DNA of 64,000 nucleotides from Moraxella lacunata. Its GTDB lineage: Bacteria; Pseudomonadota; Gammaproteobacteria; Pseudomonadales; Moraxellaceae. This document shows positions 38,458 through 44,399 of this stretch, piece by piece. A model generated the notes under the pieces. The model ran no database searches, had not been told where the DNA came from, and saw only the letters and a list, made by a program, of their open reading frames with translations. The first letter of the stretch is position 1. Every line of letters begins with the position of its first letter. The stretch spans positions 248,001-312,000 of the forward strand of contig NZ_UGQU01000003.1 in NCBI RefSeq assembly GCF_900453205.1. The letters run 5' to 3'. The position numbers and the translations under genes are program-made.

Positions 38458-38485
38458 TGTAAGATATTTGCCCCACGTCCGTCTA
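38458..38485 (+). promoter_or_regulatory. Candidate ECF-sigma promoter upstream of the MNIO cluster
   Basis: TGTAA (38458-38462) and CGTCTA (38480-38485) are spaced by 17 bp, resembling ECF promoters with a conserved -35 ending in AA and a CGTC-type -10. It sits about 45 bp before the first gene of a cluster that ends with its own ECF sigma gene. The motif was chosen by eye. Confidence 0.4.
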
Positions 38486-38529
38486 AGGTGTATCATAAAA
38501 TGGTTTATGATGTTTAATTGGAGTTTATC

Positions 38530-38904
38530 ATGTCAAATCTTAACCGTAAAATCACAGGTCTTGCCGTTGCAACCCTACTTGCCACAGGACTTACTGCTTG
38601 TAAAGAAGAAAAGGTAGAAGCACAGCCCATGGAGCAAGGCTACCAAAATGCCGAGCCAGCCCAGCCTGCTACTGCCGAGCCTAACCAAGCAACTGCTACC
38701 GCCACCGACACCAAAACTGCCGAAGGCAAATGCGGTGAGGGTAAATGTGGCGAAGCAGGGTGCAGTGCCACCATGACCGACAAATCAGCCAATGCAGGCT
38801 GTGGGGCGAACACCGCTACGGCGACTGCCGACAAATCAGCAACTGCCAGTTGTGGAGCAAGCACCGACAAAAACGCTAATGCCAGTTGTGGCGGCAACAA
38901 ATAA
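38530..38904 (+). CDS. Cys-rich EGKCGEGKCG lipoprotein, candidate MNIO substrate (bufferin/HvfA-like)
   Basis: A 124-residue protein. Residues 1-24 are a lipoprotein signal (lipobox LTAC, Cys24). A Pro/Ala/Thr/Glu linker follows, then EGKCGEGKCGE at residues 65-75 and Cys at 78, 91, 108 and 120. The last three lie in repeated Cys-Gly units separated by Asp-Lys-Ser/Asn-Ala stretches. EGKCGEGKCG is the hallmark of precursor peptides modified by DUF692 (MNIO) enzymes, such as bufferins and HvfA, where Cys become thiooxazoles or related groups and bind copper. The MNIO gene is in this cluster (41138). Lipidation and the extra spaced cysteines are unusual. A GGAG site precedes the ATG at 38530. 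Confidence 0.82.
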   Translation: MSNLNRKITGLAVATLLATGLTACKEEKVEAQPMEQGYQNAEPAQPATAEPNQATATATDTKTAEGKCGEGKCGEAGCSATMTDKSANAGCGANTATATADKSATASCGASTDKNANASCGGNK

Positions 38905-38916
38905 TCCCATGTCATC

Positions 38917-39150
38917 ATGGTGTCTAACAAATTTTCATCTGTGATTTTTGCCCTTTACATGGCGGTGATAATGGCATTCATCATGTCGCTGGTATCTGTC
39001 GCCATGAATACAGGGATAGATGACAATTACCTAATAAGAGTATTTTGGGCATACATCAAAACCATGCCTATTACCTTTGTGTGCATTTTATCTTTGCGTC
39101 CTTTGGTTGTGCGTTTGACTGAACGGACGCTTGGACGTTGGTCGTCATAG
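38917..39150 (+). CDS. DUF2798 small membrane protein
   Basis: A 77-residue protein with two transmembrane helices ('SSVIFALYMAVIMAFIMSLV' and 'YIKTMPITFVCILSLRPLVV') joined by a short polar loop, matching DUF2798. Function unknown. It lies 12 bp after the lipoprotein gene and 8 bp before the RclA gene. Its presence inside the cluster suggests a role at the inner membrane. Confidence 0.78.
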   Translation: MVSNKFSSVIFALYMAVIMAFIMSLVSVAMNTGIDDNYLIRVFWAYIKTMPITFVCILSLRPLVVRLTERTLGRWSS

Positions 39151-39158
39151 GAGTTTTT

Positions 39159-40475
39159 ATGATACAAACCAAAAACTTAATCATCGGCTTTGGTAAAGCA
39201 GGCAAAACGCTGGCAGGGCTGTTTGACAAACAGGGCGAGCGTACCATTTTGGTTGAGCAATCGGACAAAATGTATGGCGGAACGTGTATTAACGTGGGCT
39301 GTATTCCGTCAAAAAAACTGATTCATGAAGCCAAAACAGACAGTTTTGCCGTTGCCATGCAGGACAAGGATAAACTCATCTCTGCCTTGCGTGAAGCTAA
39401 TTTTAACAAAATCAATGACTTACCAAATGTAACCGTCATTACCGCACAAGCGAGTTTTATTGATGATAATACTGTTGCCCTATCCACAGGCGAGACGGTG
39501 CGTGCCGAGCGGATTTTTATCAACACAGGCACGACCCCCATTATGCCACCGATTGCAGGCGTGGACGGCGAGCGTGTTTATGACAGCACGGGGCTTTTAA
39601 ACTTAGGCGACAGCCAAGCGACCGCTCCCAAGCGACTGGTTATCGTGGGTGCAGGCTTTATCGCCCTTGAATTTGCCTTTATGTATCACGCTTTTGGCAG
39701 TCAAGTGAGCATTGTTGAAAAATTTGACAGCTTTTTGCCAAACGTTGATGATGATGTGCGTGCGATTGTGCTTGACCTATTAAATGAGCGTGGCATTACG
39801 GTGCATTTAGGGCAAGATGTCCAAGAATTTAAACACCTAACAGAGCATACCCAAGTCATCACCGATAAGATGACCCTTGATGCTGATGCTGTGCTTGTCG
39901 CCATTGGTAGACGACCCAACACGGACGGTCTAAACCTACAAAATACAAGCGTACAACTAAATGAGCGTGGCTACGTGGTGTGCGATGACAAGCTAAAAGC
40001 CACCGACCGCATTTGGGCGATGGGCGATGTCGCAGGTTCACCGCAATTTACCTATATCTCTCTTGATGATTATCGCATTGTGGCGGACGATTTGTTTGGA
40101 GACGGCACACGCCATAGAGCCGACCGCAAAATTTTCCCAACGAGCGTTTTTATCACACCGCCTTTATCACAAATCGGCATGAGCGAAAAACAAGCCAAAG
40201 ACAGTGGCAAAAATTACCAAGTGGCAACCTTGCCCGCCCAAGCCATTGTCAAAGCCAAAATCACAGGCAATACCAAAGGTTTATTAAAAGCGATTGTGGA
40301 TAAAGATAGTAACGAGATTTTGGGCGTTACGTTGTTTTGTGAAAATAGCCATGAGATTATCAATTTATTTAAATTGGCAATGGATAATGGCATTAAAGCG
40401 GATTATTTTAAAGGGCAAATTTTTACACACCCAACCATTAGCGAATCATTAAATGATTTATTTGCCCAATTTTAA
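39159..40475 (+). CDS. rclA: RclA-like pyridine nucleotide-disulfide oxidoreductase
   Basis: A 438-residue flavoprotein close to E. coli RclA. 'LIIGFGKAGKTLAGLF' is the FAD Rossmann motif, 'GGTCINVGCIPSKKLIHEAK' has the redox pair Cys43/Cys48, 'LVIVGAGFIALEFAFMYHAF' is the NAD(P)H motif, 'IWAMGDVAGSPQFTYISLDD' the second FAD motif, and 'IFTHPTISESLNDLF' the C-terminal end. RclA homologs reduce hypothiocyanous acid and have been reported to reduce Cu(II). The ATG at 39159 has an AGGAG site. In E. coli rclA pairs with rclBC; here it is embedded with MNIO genes and an ECF sigma factor. Confidence 0.88.
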   Translation: MIQTKNLIIGFGKAGKTLAGLFDKQGERTILVEQSDKMYGGTCINVGCIPSKKLIHEAKTDSFAVAMQDKDKLISALREANFNKINDLPNVTVITAQASFIDDNTVALSTGETVRAERIFINTGTTPIMPPIAGVDGERVYDSTGLLNLGDSQATAPKRLVIVGAGFIALEFAFMYHAFGSQVSIVEKFDSFLPNVDDDVRAIVLDLLNERGITVHLGQDVQEFKHLTEHTQVITDKMTLDADAVLVAIGRRPNTDGLNLQNTSVQLNERGYVVCDDKLKATDRIWAMGDVAGSPQFTYISLDDYRIVADDLFGDGTRHRADRKIFPTSVFITPPLSQIGMSEKQAKDSGKNYQVATLPAQAIVKAKITGNTKGLLKAIVDKDSNEILGVTLFCENSHEIINLFKLAMDNGIKADYFKGQIFTHPTISESLNDLFAQF

Positions 40476-40520
40476 TTGTTTTTAAATAAATTTAATCGGT
40501 TTAATTTAAAAAGGTGTCTT

Positions 40521-40910
40521 ATGAAAAAACTCACTCTTGCCATTGCAATTAGCATTTTGGGATTAACTGCGTGTAACAGTTTTGCCAATACCTCATCAAA
40601 ACAAAACAATGCCAAATCTCAAACCCAAACTCAATCACAAATCAAACCAAAAGCAAAAGGCGTTTGGATTGATGTTCGTAGCCCCGAAGAGTATCAAGCA
40701 GGGCATTTGTCAAATAGCATCAATATCCCTGTTGGCGATATTGCATCAAAGATTTCTGCCATTGAACCCAATAAAAACAATCCTATCAATCTATATTGCC
40801 GAAGTGGCAGACGTGCCGAAGCCGCTCGCACAGAACTCTTAAAATTGGGCTATACCAATGTTACCAATCACGGTGGTTATGAAGACCTAAAACAACAAGG
40901 CTATCGTTAA
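40521..40910 (+). CDS. Rhodanese-domain lipoprotein
   Basis: A 129-residue protein with a lipoprotein signal (lipobox LTAC, Cys18), a Gln/Lys/Ser-rich linker and a single rhodanese domain: 'GVWIDVRSPEEYQAGHLSNS', then the active-site loop 'YCRSGRR' with Cys93 and a closing 'GGYEDL'. Rhodaneses move sulfane sulfur, for instance from thiosulfate to cyanide or to protein thiols. Here the domain is predicted in the periplasm, tethered to a membrane like the Cys-rich lipoprotein of the same cluster. The ATG at 40521 is 45 bp after rclA. Confidence 0.88.
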   Translation: MKKLTLAIAISILGLTACNSFANTSSKQNNAKSQTQTQSQIKPKAKGVWIDVRSPEEYQAGHLSNSINIPVGDIASKISAIEPNKNNPINLYCRSGRRAEAARTELLKLGYTNVTNHGGYEDLKQQGYR

Positions 40911-40920
40911 GAGGTGTTTT

Positions 40921-41121
40921 ATGAAAATCAATGTTGGTAAACCTGATAAAATTGTACGAATTATTTTGGGTGTTGTCATTATTGGCTTGGGTGTTTATTT
41001 TGGTTCGTGGTGGGGAATTGTTGGGCTTGTGCCATTATTGACAGGTTTTATGAATTTTTGCCCCATTTATCATATTTTGGGCATCAGCACTTGCAAATGC
41101 CATGTTGATAACAAACCCTAA
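40921..41121 (+). CDS. DUF2892 (YgaP-type) membrane protein
   Basis: A 66-residue protein matching DUF2892: 'NVGKPDKIVRIILGVVIIGL' is the first helix and 'WGIVGLVPLLTGFMNFCPIY' the second, ending with Cys residues in 'FCPIYHILGISTCKC'. In YgaP this domain is fused to a rhodanese; here rhodanese and DUF2892 are adjacent genes 10 bp apart, which supports a joint role in sulfur handling. Confidence 0.85.
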   Translation: MKINVGKPDKIVRIILGVVIIGLGVYFGSWWGIVGLVPLLTGFMNFCPIYHILGISTCKCHVDNKP

Positions 41122-41137
41122 TAATTAGGAAAATAAA

Positions 41138-42046
41138 ATGACAAGTAAAAGACCATTACACGGGGCAGGGCTTGGCTTTCGCCGTGAGTTATTGCCACAA
41201 ATGTCTCTTGATGATGCCAATGCCATTCATCAATTAAGCCAGATTGATTTTTTTGAAGTGTCGCCTGAAAATTGGATAAACTCCCACGGCATTATGGGCG
41301 GACGTTTTGAAAATATCTTGCGTGCTTATAGCGAGCGATTTTCTTTTATTTGTCATGGACTTTCTTTATCTATTGGCAGTTCAAAAGAATTGGACGTGGC
41401 TCATGTAAATAATATTAAGCATTTTATGAAGTCGCATAACATCAATTTATTTACCGAGCATTTGTCTTGGTGTAGTGATGACAAAGGGCATTTGTATGAT
41501 TTATTGCCCATTCCTTGCACCGAAGAAGCGGTATTTTGGGTTGCCGAGCGTATTAAAAAAGTACAAGATATTTTAGGTTCTCAAATTGGCATTGAAAACG
41601 CCTCATATTATTATCTACCGCCCCAAAGCCAAATGTCCGACAGCGAATTTATTTCTGCGGTGGTAAAAGAAGCCGATTGTTTATTGCATTTAGATGTGAA
41701 TAATATTTTTGTCAATAGCCAAAACTTTGGTTTTGACCCACACCAATATTTGCGTGAATTGCCGCTCGAGCGGACGTGTTATTTGCACGTTGCTGGGCAT
41801 TATGTGGACGATGACGGCTTGATTGTGGATACGCATGGCGATAGCGTGGTGGAGCGTGTTTGGGCGTTATTAAATGACGCTTATGGTTTGATATTTGCCA
41901 AAACAGGTAAAACGGCAGATAAGATTCCGACTTGTTTGGAGCGTGATTTTAATTTCCCAGAACTTAGCGAACTCACCCGTGAAGTTAAATTCATTCGGGA
42001 AATTCAAGAACGTCATAAAAATAATTCTACATTTAAATTGGCTTAA
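41138..42046 (+). CDS. DUF692 multinuclear iron oxidative enzyme (MNIO; HvfB/BufB-like)
   Basis: A 302-residue TIM-barrel enzyme. Candidate metal ligands are in 'FFEVSPENWI', 'FICHGLSLSIG', 'LFTEHLSWC', 'QIGIENASYYY', 'LLHLDVNNIFVNSQN', 'CYLHVAGHY' and 'IVDTHGDSV'. Relatives (MbnB, TglH, ChrH, HvfB, BufB) use two or three irons to oxidise cysteines of peptide substrates into oxazolone/thioamide, thiooxazole or related groups. It is followed by its usual DUF2063 partner. The substrate is predicted to be the lipoprotein at 38530. Confidence 0.92.
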   Translation: MTSKRPLHGAGLGFRRELLPQMSLDDANAIHQLSQIDFFEVSPENWINSHGIMGGRFENILRAYSERFSFICHGLSLSIGSSKELDVAHVNNIKHFMKSHNINLFTEHLSWCSDDKGHLYDLLPIPCTEEAVFWVAERIKKVQDILGSQIGIENASYYYLPPQSQMSDSEFISAVVKEADCLLHLDVNNIFVNSQNFGFDPHQYLRELPLERTCYLHVAGHYVDDDGLIVDTHGDSVVERVWALLNDAYGLIFAKTGKTADKIPTCLERDFNFPELSELTREVKFIREIQERHKNNSTFKLA

Positions 42047-42081
42047 TTATTTTAATGATAATTTAATAAAATGGCATAACA

Positions 42082-42873
42082 ATGATGATTGATAAAGCAC
42101 CCAAGTTACGCATCTTTCAGCGTGAATTTGGCGATTATATCCGCAAACAAAAACACGATAATACTGATACCGTGCCTGCTCGTGTGGGGCAATTATATCA
42201 AAATCTGATTTATAATAATGTCTCTGGCTTTGTCAATCAATGCTTTCCCATTACTCGCAGTATTATTGAGACGCATTTTGGCATATTGGTTTGGCAAAAT
42301 CTGATTAAAGATTTTTTAAAACATGGCGATATGGCAAGTCCGTATTTTAGTGAAATTACCGAGCAATTTGTCGGCTATTTGACCGATGATGTTTTGACAA
42401 AATTTGATTTGCCTGTTTATTTGTCCGAATTTGCCCATTATGAATGGGTGGAATTGTTTGTAGATAATCTACCGAACAATACTCCCAAGCCTATTTTAAT
42501 GTATCAAAATGCGTCTATTTTTATCAATCATACCGCCCAGATTTTATATTATGAATGGGCGGTGCAGGATATTAGCGTGGCATTTTCTCCCAGTCAAAAA
42601 AGCCCGACTTTTTTGGTGGTGTATCGTAAAGTGGTGGACGGTACATTTAAAACGGCATTTATGACCATAAGCCAGCTTAGTTTTATCATACTAACCTTTA
42701 TGCAAGAAAAGCAAAATGAAGAGGTATGTTATCAAAATACAAATGAGTTATTGGCAGAGCTACAACGCACCTTTGAATTAAATGATGAGATTTTTGATAA
42801 TATCAAAACTTCGTTTGATGATTTGGTCAATACAATGATTGATAATCAAATTTTTTATAACCAATCTTTTTAA
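42082..42873 (+). CDS. DUF2063 partner protein (HvfC/BufC-like)
   Basis: A 263-residue protein. The N-terminal DUF2063 domain is clear in 'APKLRIFQREFGDYIRKQK', 'YQNLIYNNVSGFVNQCFPIT' and 'YLSEFAHYEWVELFVDN'. The C-terminal half is a mixed alpha/beta domain. Such partners bind the precursor peptide and present it to the MNIO enzyme. It begins 35 bp after the DUF692 gene and is always found beside it in hvf/buf-type operons as I know them. Confidence 0.88.
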   Translation: MMIDKAPKLRIFQREFGDYIRKQKHDNTDTVPARVGQLYQNLIYNNVSGFVNQCFPITRSIIETHFGILVWQNLIKDFLKHGDMASPYFSEITEQFVGYLTDDVLTKFDLPVYLSEFAHYEWVELFVDNLPNNTPKPILMYQNASIFINHTAQILYYEWAVQDISVAFSPSQKSPTFLVVYRKVVDGTFKTAFMTISQLSFIILTFMQEKQNEEVCYQNTNELLAELQRTFELNDEIFDNIKTSFDDLVNTMIDNQIFYNQSF

Positions 42874-42890
42874 TAAAAATAAGGTAAATT

Positions 42891-43529
42891 ATGATAAAAA
42901 AATACAACGCTTATTACAATAAATTTGTTGTAAATTTAAATAAATTAGACTTTTTGCCATTATTCGCCATTCGTCTTTATCTTGCCCCTGTGTTTATTAT
43001 GGCAGGGCTAACCAAATACCGTTCGTTTGATGATACGGCACAGTGGTTTGGTAATGCCGATTGGGGGCTTGGTTTGCCATTTGCATCCTTTTGGGTAGCA
43101 ATGGTGATTGTTGCTGAATTGATTGGTGGTGTGGCGTTATTACTCGGCGTGGCGACTCGTTTTTTTGGCGTGTTATTGGCAATCACAATGGCGGTTGCCA
43201 TGCTTCTTGTGCATTTAAAAAACGGCTGGCACGCCATTACCCCAACCGACCCTGCGACCAATATCGCCCAATTATTTGGCGGATTGGGACAGGCAAGTTT
43301 GGATAATTCCATACAAGCGGGCGAGCGATTAAATAAAGCCCGTGAAATCTTACAAACGCATGGCAATTATGACTGGCTGACCGAAACGGGTAATTTTGTG
43401 GTTTTAAATAATGGCATAGAATTTGGCATGACGTATTTTATTATGCTACTTGTTTTAATTACCTATGGGGCGGGGCGGTATATAAGCATTGACTTTTGGA
43501 TAAACAAAAGTCTGCCAACTTTGAAATAA
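42891..43529 (+). CDS. DoxX-family membrane protein (HvfD/BufD-like)
   Basis: A 212-residue inner-membrane protein with four helices of the DoxX type: 'FAIRLYLAPVFIMAGLTKYR', 'FASFWVAMVIVAELIGGVAL', 'GVLLAITMAVAMLLVHLKNG' and a last helix near residue 185. A periplasmic or cytoplasmic loop of about 60 residues separates helices three and four. DoxX proteins are regular members of DUF692/DUF2063 operons, with an unproven redox or quinone-linked role. Confidence 0.88.
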   Translation: MIKKYNAYYNKFVVNLNKLDFLPLFAIRLYLAPVFIMAGLTKYRSFDDTAQWFGNADWGLGLPFASFWVAMVIVAELIGGVALLLGVATRFFGVLLAITMAVAMLLVHLKNGWHAITPTDPATNIAQLFGGLGQASLDNSIQAGERLNKAREILQTHGNYDWLTETGNFVVLNNGIEFGMTYFIMLLVLITYGAGRYISIDFWINKSLPTLK

Positions 43530-43530
43530 T

Positions 43531-43602
43531 ACTGTGTCAAACTCGCTCACAGTACTATTTGTACAGCTTCGCTCGTTTTCCTTGTCTTATTCCAAATTTG
43601 TT
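43531..43602 (+). repeat. Structured intergenic repeat before the sigma gene
   Basis: ACTGTG...CACAGT forms a 6-bp stem (43531-43553), followed by GTAC/GTAC and a pyrimidine-rich run. From memory, similar 'TCAAACTCGCTCACAGTACT' elements recur in Moraxellaceae intergenic regions; only one copy was noticed here. Confidence 0.4.
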
Positions 43603-43612
43603 TGACTTAAAA

Positions 43613-44200
43613 ATGCACCAAATAGAATTACGCCAATTTGATAAAAAAAGCATGGATGAGATATATCAGTCCATGTTTGCTTTTGCGTATAACCAATTAA
43701 ATCACGAACAGCACGCCAAAGATGTGGTGCAAGATGCTCTCTTAAATGCCTTAAAATATGCCGACAGTTTTCAAGGAAAGTCCGCCTTTAAAACATGGGT
43801 ATTTGCCATTTTAAAAAATAAAATTGCCGATTTTATTCGCCGAAATAAACACTATGAAATGATAAGCGATATGAGTGAAAATAGCGATGAAGAATTTTTG
43901 GCAATGCTGTTTGATGATATTGGGCATTGGCAAAATGGCTCATCGCCAAATGCCTTTGATAATCGTTGGGCAAGTCCGCATGAAACAGCTGAAAATGATG
44001 AATTTTGGCAAGTATTGGAACTTTGTTTGGAAAATCTGCCAAAAGAGCAGGCGCAAGTTTTTTTGATGAAAGAATATATAGAATTGGGTAGCGATGAGAT
44101 TTGTCAAAACTTAAATATCACTCGCCAAAATTTATATGTGTTATTGCACAGAGCCAGATTAAGATTGCAAATGTGTTTGTCGGTAAAATGGTTTGTTTAG
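43613..44200 (+). CDS. ECF-type RNA polymerase sigma factor
   Basis: A 195-residue sigma factor. Sigma region 2 is seen in 'YNQLNHEQHAKDVVQDALLN' and 'SFQGKSAFKTWVFAILKNKI' with 'DFIRR'. Region 4 is near the C-terminus, with 'LPKEQAQVFLMKEYIELGSD' and 'LNITRQNLYVLLHRARLRL'. The linker is longer than average. It is followed after 10 bp by a small zinc-type anti-sigma gene. The pair resembles the Neisseria ECF-MseR pair, which also neighbours DUF692/DUF2063 genes. It likely activates the promoter before 38530. The ATG at 43613 is chosen over an upstream frame that runs through the repeat. Confidence 0.9.
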   Translation: MHQIELRQFDKKSMDEIYQSMFAFAYNQLNHEQHAKDVVQDALLNALKYADSFQGKSAFKTWVFAILKNKIADFIRRNKHYEMISDMSENSDEEFLAMLFDDIGHWQNGSSPNAFDNRWASPHETAENDEFWQVLELCLENLPKEQAQVFLMKEYIELGSDEICQNLNITRQNLYVLLHRARLRLQMCLSVKWFV

Positions 44201-44210
44201 GGGGAATACA

Positions 44211-44399
44211 ATGAAACGATTAAAAAATTGCCAAAAAATGACTGAATTGATGAGCTTATCACAAGAAGAACCATTGACTTTATCTCAAAAAATGGCGGTA
44301 AAGTTTCATCTTTTGATGTGTCCTGAATGCCGCAGGTTTGATGATAATAATCGGGTGTTAAAAGAGATGATAAAACAGCATAAGAATTTAAAGGGATGA
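44211..44399 (+). CDS. Zinc-type anti-sigma factor (MseR-like)
   Basis: A 62-residue protein with a HxxxCxxC motif in 'KFHLLMCPECRRF' (His33, Cys37, Cys40) and a further Cys7, the pattern of ZAS-family anti-sigma factors that hold their ECF partner and release it when zinc-bound thiols are oxidised. It has no membrane helix, so it should sense cytoplasmic oxidants. It starts 10 bp after the sigma gene behind GGGGGA and ends 15 bp before convergent rnhB. Confidence 0.88.
   Translation: MKRLKNCQKMTELMSLSQEEPLTLSQKMAVKFHLLMCPECRRFDDNNRVLKEMIKQHKNLKG

Follow-up and report, generated by a model that had tools for sequence, protein, structure and literature searches.

Within a 64,000-nucleotide stretch of a Moraxella lacunata genome (positions 248,001 to 312,000 of contig NZ_UGQU01000003.1; this whole stretch is hereafter called the window), we identified a cluster of ten genes that is, with fair probability, an envelope-stress operon controlled by an extracytoplasmic function (ECF) sigma factor. 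It appears to be derived from the merger of an hvf operon for a ribosomally synthesized and post-translationally modified peptide (RiPP), which has its own sigma/zinc-anti-sigma switch, with a module composed of an RclA-like reductase and a rhodanese. The sequence itself shows which genes are present, a single promoter-like element, conservation, purifying selection and occurrence in one clade of six genomes, whereas the signal, the peptide modification and the hypothiocyanous acid (HOSCN) activity in this organism are inferred.

Proteins were assigned to families using Pfam and NCBIfam, the latter with curated cut-offs. By these assignments, six of the ten genes make up an oxazolin-type (hvf) system, that is, an HvfA-like precursor, HvfB, HvfC, HvfX and an ECF sigma/zinc anti-sigma pair. 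The genes for a DUF2798 protein, the RclA-like reductase, an exported rhodanese and a DUF2892 protein are located between those for the precursor and the maturase. A previous sequence-only reading of the window had described a same-strand cluster of ten genes, and all of them were found to be intact ATG-to-stop frames on the plus strand (38530-44399), with intergenic gaps of 8-45 bp except for 83 bp ahead of the sigma gene. Pfam agreed with the families named in that reading for all genes but the precursor, which matched no Pfam family, and the start it had given for the cluster coincides with the position at which an ECF-like promoter begins (38458).

Conservation and origin of the operon

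RclA-bearing hvf operons were identified in six of the 10 Moraxella genomes having HvfB above its cut-off (G000, G010, G078, G081, G089 and G094). The order hvfA-rclA-rhodanese-DUF2892-hvfBCX-sigma-anti-sigma recurred in five Moraxella genomes other than that of the window, with RclA identity down to 77%, which makes the arrangement more than a chance one. For nine operon genes compared with G010 and G094, omega (the ratio of nonsynonymous to synonymous substitution rates) ranged from 0.05 to 0.29 (one value was not computable), and the synonymous divergence (dS) from G094 was mostly >1. The six operon genomes formed one clade in the trees of RclA (100/98), HvfB (94/94) and sigma (99/99); in each tree G094 and then G010 branched first, and the order of the four closest members differed. 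Such a single clade fits a single merger. Probably, one fusion was followed by vertical inheritance under purifying selection, and the merger looks old and, judging from these comparisons, kept by selection.

The RclA-rhodanese pair also exists away from hvf genes, and the cluster is therefore best described as a merger of two modules. When the best 10 candidates per genome were scored in 149 Moraxellaceae genomes, RclA was found in 12 of them (E 1e-95), and the next same-strand gene was a rhodanese in 10, namely the six with RclA in an hvf operon and another four in which it lies elsewhere (G045, G050, G056 and G063). As for the other two, G086 has a rhodanese and a DUF302 lipoprotein 2-3 kb away on the opposite strand, and G097 has no rhodanese beside RclA, its rhodanese being located on another contig. 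In G045 and G050, hvf and RclA-rhodanese loci are separate within one genome, and a rhodanese without RclA was also found in other Moraxella. In an order-wide sample of 390 genomes (best four candidates per genome scored), RclA occurred in two, both Moraxella. Within one Moraxella clade, the joint RiPP and HOSCN/sulfur module proposed by the sequence-only reading does exist and is subject to selection, but its RclA-rhodanese part is not confined to hvf operons.

In a tree including named RclAs, the operon line and G097 joined an RclA from Prevotella (95/94), whereas the second line in Moraxellaceae stood separately (100/100); sampling outside Moraxellaceae was thin, amounting to nine rows, seven of them named. 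Thus, two RclA lines precede the same kind of rhodanese. In the rhodanese tree, support was too weak to date the entry of the rhodanese into the hvf operon.

These data also bear on a simpler possibility, that is, ordinary operon growth, in which RclA and the rhodanese came to lie downstream of a strong stress promoter and have only the stimulus in common with the RiPP, without any chemical link. The independent existence of RclA-rhodanese, the association in one clade only and the gain or loss of DUF2798 at the locus would all agree with it, whereas the omega values and the maintenance of gene order while RclA identity dropped to 77% argue against it. We regard operon growth as possible but doubtful. 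It should be noted that the probabilities we assign to the different explanations sum to more than one, because operon growth overlaps the merged stress operon on all but joint action.

A DUF302 lipoprotein gene precedes RclA-rhodanese in G045, G050 and G056 (loci L225, L227 and L228) and is found 0.6 kb ahead of hvfA in G078 and G089 (L027 and L029); its product may belong to the RclA module as a third component. Its presence in the window cluster was rejected, since the only match in this genome (50% identity) is on another contig.

Distribution of hvf loci and their neighbours

HvfB above the cut-off was detected in 54 of the 149 Moraxellaceae genomes, 10 of 22 Moraxella genomes and 117 of 369 gammaproteobacterial genomes. 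We compared 40 Moraxellaceae loci (window excluded), 80 class-wide loci (one each from 80 of the 117 genomes) and 53 loci from named genomes (60 were fetched and seven dropped as duplicates of genomes already sampled), and counted neighbours on the same strand within 5 kb of HvfB. The Moraxellaceae loci contained HvfC in 38 cases, sigma and anti-sigma in 30 each, HvfX in 16, rhodanese and DUF2892 in at least six each and RclA in five. Class-wide, 13 of the 80 loci having <5 kb of sequence on one side, the numbers were 80 for HvfC, 46 for HvfX, three each for sigma and anti-sigma, at least two for rhodanese and none for RclA; in named genomes, HvfC was found at 48 loci, HvfX at 17 and sigma at three. 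The rhodanese and DUF2892 counts are lower bounds because the profiles were built from close relatives.

On the basis of the 0/80 class-wide result, a general association of RclA with genes for MNIO (multinuclear non-heme iron-dependent oxidative) enzymes was rejected. The rclA profile drifted to other flavoprotein reductases. Within 5 kb, it matched L134, L158 and L164 class-wide (opposite strand) and, in named genomes, L109 and L111 (Hydrogenophaga; same strand) and L067 and L113 (opposite strand). These matches and four further-off ones were 25-33% identical to the window RclA and were not counted; those in named genomes showed 31-32% identity and are not RclA.

Partial arrangements were also observed. 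The hvf cluster of G025 has a rhodanese before hvfB without RclA, and G050, which belongs to another genus, carries two hvf loci, one of them with DUF2892 only. In one genus of another gammaproteobacterial family (loci L155 and L166, genomes G150 and G511), a shorter rhodanese with no visible signal directly precedes hvfB; owing to these features it was set aside as a separate case. In clusters L023, L024 and L033, HvfC is directly followed by sigma, without HvfX.

Promoter and sigma/anti-sigma switch

The sequence-only reading had linked the block to the sigma factor, and one ECF-type promoter indeed stands ahead of it. This putative promoter, TGTAAG-N16-CGTCTAA (38458..38486, plus strand), lies 72 bases before hvfA and was the only match in the window, where 0.02 chance matches would be expected for TGTAA-N15-18-CGWCTAA. 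It was also the sole site without mismatch in the 2.83 Mb genome, all others being at two mismatches, and it may serve the whole block. The same element was found upstream of hvfA in related Moraxella: a search of 22 Moraxella genomes for TGTAAG-N15-17-CGWCTAA yielded 11 matches in 11 genomes, nine of which were upstream of an hvfA gene (that of G109 being at the end of a contig). The remaining matches, one each in G025 and G036, represent one shared site before a membrane-protein gene (a methyltransferase by eye), and in these two genomes only partial versions of the promoter were present at hvfA, in hvf clusters without HvfX and RclA. At the shared site (L128, G025:C57:148897; L132, G036:C14:239738), the ECF-type promoter and the methyltransferase-like membrane-protein gene are followed by a PhzF-like gene. 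A wider sigma regulon was rejected, since the genome contains no second exact promoter and 32 sites with up to two mismatches versus 80 control sites.

The ECF sigma factor (195 aa; 43613..44200, plus strand) scored 204.7 bits against TIGR02943 (cut-off 162.2) and matched Sigma70_r2 (E 1e-13). The gene beside it encodes a zinc-binding anti-sigma (ZAS) factor (44211..44399, plus strand; NF052368 61.1 bits, cut-off 50; zf-HC2 E 1e-6) that has the features of the MseR/HrsE type, namely 62 aa and a Cys plus HxxxCxxC, here C7 and H33xxxC37xxC40. The Cys/His spacing is identical to that of C4/H30/C34/C37 in Neisseria MseR.

Two known systems can be compared with this switch, of which H. influenzae RpoE2/HrsE is the better precedent. 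The ECF factor RpoE2, which is held by the 67-residue ZAS-motif anti-sigma HrsE, was reported to respond to hypochlorous acid (HOCl) and to control the genes for DoxX, COG3220, DUF2063 and a periplasmic protein (PMC7907618), which form an operon that we read as hvf. Both hvf systems share the HvfB, HvfC and HvfX families above cut-off, an EGKCG precursor and an ECF sigma with a small zinc anti-sigma. However, the sigma pair sits inside the operon in Moraxella, RclA, rhodanese and DUF2892 are inserted, and the lipoprotein precursor contains two EGKCG motifs, whereas that of H. influenzae is described with three AEGKCGEGKCG and six modifiable cysteines (PMC13419390). The Neisseria sigma-E operon (NMB2140-2145) likewise encodes its own ZAS factor, MseR (PMC2893595), and the sigma and anti-sigma thus lie within the operon they control. 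In contrast, RclA and rhodanese are not mentioned in the available parts of the reports on that operon (PMC2893595, PMC3240639), and sigma-E is reported to drive msrA/msrB as well (PMC3240639), whereas the Moraxella genome has one exact promoter site.

Precursor peptide and its maturation

The EGKCG RiPP set recognized by the sequence-only reading proved to be of the HvfA/B/C/X type. The HvfA-like precursor (124 aa; 38530..38904, plus strand) contains a KCGExKCG_twice domain (24.6 bits, cut-off 19.5), two EGKCG cysteines and four further cysteines. A lipobox (LTAC, with Cys24 as the lipid cysteine) was found by pattern, in agreement with the lipoprotein that had been proposed. Three maturation proteins encoded on the same strand each scored above their curated cut-offs: the MNIO (DUF692) peptide maturase HvfB (302 aa; 41138..42046; NF003818 377.8 bits, cut-off 360; MbnB_TglH_ChrH E 2.5e-89; Protein Data Bank (PDB) entry 3bww E 1e-63), its partner HvfC (DUF2063/RRE, where RRE is a RiPP recognition element; 263 aa; 42082..42873; NF050145 166.7 bits, cut-off 142; Pfam DUF2063 E 2e-13) and the DoxX-like membrane protein HvfX (212 aa; 42891..43529; NF050144 211.1 bits, cut-off 80; Pfam DoxX E 6e-20). 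Together with an exported EGKCG-motif precursor near the maturase, these place the locus among the oxazolin/HvfABCX systems. DUF692-DUF2063-DoxX sets had been said to modify cysteines of EGKCG peptides; this needs to be changed, as the HvfBC product is now assigned as copper-binding 5-thiooxazoles (PMC13419390). MNIO bufferins have been tied to copper stress (PMC12452194). By these similarities, the peptide is probably modified and copper-binding.

It might then be asked whether the whole block is a copper operon, in which RclA would be a Cu(II) reductase that feeds or protects a Cu(I)-binding peptide and HOSCN would be incidental. Besides the copper binding of oxazolin (PMC13419390) and the relation of bufferins to copper stress (PMC12452194), the RefSeq label of E. 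coli RclA, 'cupric reductase', speaks for this. On the other hand, RclA is expected in the cytoplasm and the peptide is exported, and no copper pump, sensor or oxidase is present among the ten families of the block. Moreover, a rhodanese is the usual neighbour of RclA in Moraxellaceae even without hvf nearby, and sulfur/thiocyanate chemistry therefore fits better than copper. We consider a copper operon unlikely.

The lipobox pattern was present in 0/64 class-wide precursors (from 61 loci), 2/14 precursors from named genomes and 7/32 Moraxellaceae precursors, in addition to that of the window. Three more precursors were lipobox-like by eye, namely one that the pattern missed (L026) and two that failed the motif filter (L023 and L033). 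After the signal peptide, 39 of the 64 class-wide precursors (L133-L212) carry NPF-x4-L-x-SGY (with near variants of N, L and S), and 55 a looser PF-GY form; the corresponding numbers in Moraxellaceae were 0/32 and 3/32, and Moraxella precursors have a PMxQGYQN-like stretch at the same place. The NPF..SGY motif is a candidate recognition motif. Distant MNIO loci in deltaproteobacterial metagenome-assembled genomes (L091 and L093) have repeated EG-S-CG precursors, which also contain a lipobox.

RclA-like reductase, rhodanese and DUF2892 protein

The RclA-like flavoprotein reductase (438 aa; 39159..40475, plus strand; Pyr_redox_2 E 3e-56) had its best PDB sequence matches to 6kgy (E 3e-129) and 8ajj (E 5e-106), which are E. 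coli RclA and S. aureus MerA, respectively (PMC11107202). HOSCN reductases are described as having CXXXXC, HXXXXE and two active-site lysines that are absent from E. coli glutathione reductase and human thioredoxin reductase (PMC11107202), and all of these residues are present here (K13, K16, C43, C48, H424 and E429). In a 21-row tree (MerA and Har left out, midpoint root, with a long-branch warning), the reductase fell in a clade of 17 rows (100/99) that also contained E. coli RclA and two proteins from lactic acid bacteria, and the Rhizobium, Deinococcus, G188 and G329 proteins stood apart. By its signature residues it is a probable HOSCN reductase. The earlier designation as RclA-like is supported by these residues and by the grouping with E. 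coli RclA, but the protein is below the NCBIfam equivalog cut-offs for both RclA and MerA. It belongs to the same enzyme family by sequence, with shared signature residues, as RclA of the E. coli RclABC system, MerA of S. aureus and Har of S. pneumoniae. For RclA and Har, kcat/KM values with HOSCN are around 1e7-1e8 per M per s (PMC11107202). Its surroundings are different: the E. coli neighbours are RclB, RclC and the regulator RclR, and here they are the rhodanese, DUF2892 and an ECF switch.

The rhodanese (129 aa; 40521..40910, plus strand; Pfam Rhodanese E 3e-17; PDB 2jtq E 2e-18) is of the exported, PspE-like kind, being a single domain with a lipobox and the loop CRSGRR that holds the active Cys, and scored 80.2 bits against NCBIfam PspE, below the cut-off of 102. 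The DUF2892 protein (66 aa; 40921..41121, plus strand) belongs to the YgaP transmembrane family (PF11127, YgaP-like_TM, E 4e-23); it had no PDB sequence match at E 0.1, and its 'FC' aligned to the FC (Cys159) of YgaP in a weak pairwise alignment. In E. coli YgaP, the membrane part and a cytosolic rhodanese are fused into a single polypeptide, whereas the two are separate here and the rhodanese is exported. The YgaP transmembrane domain was reported to change on thiocyanate binding and proposed to be an exporter (PMC4730233).

Alternatively, HvfX, the rhodanese and DUF2892 might constitute a membrane oxidoreductase unit for thiol/sulfur repair, similar to the mycobacterial DoxX-SseA-SodA complex, for which RclA would reduce low-molecular-weight disulfides. 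DoxX of M. tuberculosis has been reported with a sulfur transferase (Nambi 2015, cited in PMC7907618), and the rhodanese of G025 precedes hvfB without RclA. The same G025 cluster, however, has no HvfX, and HvfX was found at 46 of the 80 class-wide loci versus two for the rhodanese (with a narrow profile). Such a complex appears quite unlikely.

Proposed mechanism of the stress operon

If the block is an ECF-controlled stress operon as proposed above, an oxidant (HOSCN or HOCl) would attack the zinc-bound thiols of the anti-sigma (62 residues) and release the sigma factor, which would transcribe all ten genes. HvfB and HvfC would then build Cu(I)-binding heterocycles from the EGKCG cysteines of the precursor. 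The modified peptide, anchored in the envelope through its lipobox, would stop copper from catalysing more thiol damage. In the same response, cytoplasmic RclA would reduce HOSCN, the thiocyanate formed may leave the cell by way of DUF2892, and the exported rhodanese would handle sulfane sulfur, or cyanide from HOSCN breakdown. Cyanide has been described as a possible product of this breakdown (PMC12736191).

A more speculative extension, which we hold to be rather improbable, is a thiocyanate cycle that is complete within the operon: RclA would reduce HOSCN to thiocyanate, the exported rhodanese would turn cyanide into thiocyanate, and DUF2892 would let it out. One merger would have put this cycle under the sigma switch of a copper-binding thiooxazole peptide with a lipid anchor, so that one operon would counter attack of the lactoperoxidase type. 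Rhodaneses of this kind are the neighbours of two RclA lineages, one of them Prevotella-like. The nearest named relatives of this Moraxella by HvfB identity are M. caprae (99%) and M. bovoculi (98%), the latter an eye organism of cattle, and HOSCN is an oxidant made by the host in tears and saliva. Lactoperoxidase occurs in both fluids (PMC12154331).

Several observations weigh against the stress-operon interpretation. The promoter pattern was as frequent as its reversed control (11 versus 11 in the 22 genus genomes), and the evidence for the promoter therefore rests on its position; six standalone RclA loci contained no strict match, and the 2 kb around RclA no relaxed one either. Deletion of rpoE2 in H. 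influenzae was reported to leave oxidant resistance in vitro at the wild-type level, although survival in mice was poor (PMC7907618). The sequence-only reading held that the Neisseria ECF/MseR system answers oxidants, but for MseR, an anti-sigma of the same type, no response to H2O2, diamide or singlet oxygen was reported (PMC2893595). The reductase scored 543 bits against NCBIfam RclA (cut-off 740) and 494 bits against MerA (cut-off 650). The precursor reached 16.5 bits against the HvfA equivalog (cut-off 95), and for this reason the names 'HvfA-like' and 'oxazolin-type' are used. RclA is expected in the cytoplasm, and the precursor and rhodanese are exported. In G089 (L029), the DUF2892 gene is interrupted, the neighbouring operon genes being open. 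Finally, the Michaelis constant of E. coli PspE for cyanide is 32 mM (PMC2593051), and efficient cyanide detoxification is thus disfavoured.

Each part of this system is already known; to our knowledge, the merger and the combined regulon are new. In its main text (supplements not included), the MNIO landscape paper contains none of the words rhodanese, DUF2892 and RclA; it does describe a small number of EGKCG clusters in which other genes for oxidoreductases occur. In the portion of the open-licence literature that was available, we found no report of an RclA-rhodanese operon, of RclA with MNIO/hvf genes or of anything like a joint RiPP and HOSCN/sulfur module, which is consistent with the novelty claimed earlier for such a module but is weak evidence of absence. 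MNIO-made copper peptides have so far been interpreted mainly as copper buffers; if the above mechanism is true, the operon would tie them to host peroxidase chemistry, which could be tested in one strain. It would also offer candidate partners for RclA-type enzymes outside Enterobacteriaceae, that is, the exported rhodanese, the DUF302 lipoprotein and DUF2892. In E. coli itself, the roles of RclB and RclC are still to be established (PMC12096828).

Other features of the locus

The DUF2798 protein (77 aa; 38917..39150, plus strand; PF11391 E 5e-18) is a lineage-limited passenger. Its gene had a DNA match at one of nine other Moraxella loci (L029 in G089), and blastn detected no remnants in sister species. 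In the recurrence of the gene set among Moraxella genomes, DUF2798 is the exception. A scan for intrinsic terminators found nine, compared with 7.0 in shuffled sequences, and a repeat-like stretch ahead of the sigma gene occurs once in the window. The genome is assembled in six contigs. Upstream, the cluster is flanked by an rtcB gene with small frames in between, and downstream by a gene on the opposite strand, which we take to be rnhB.

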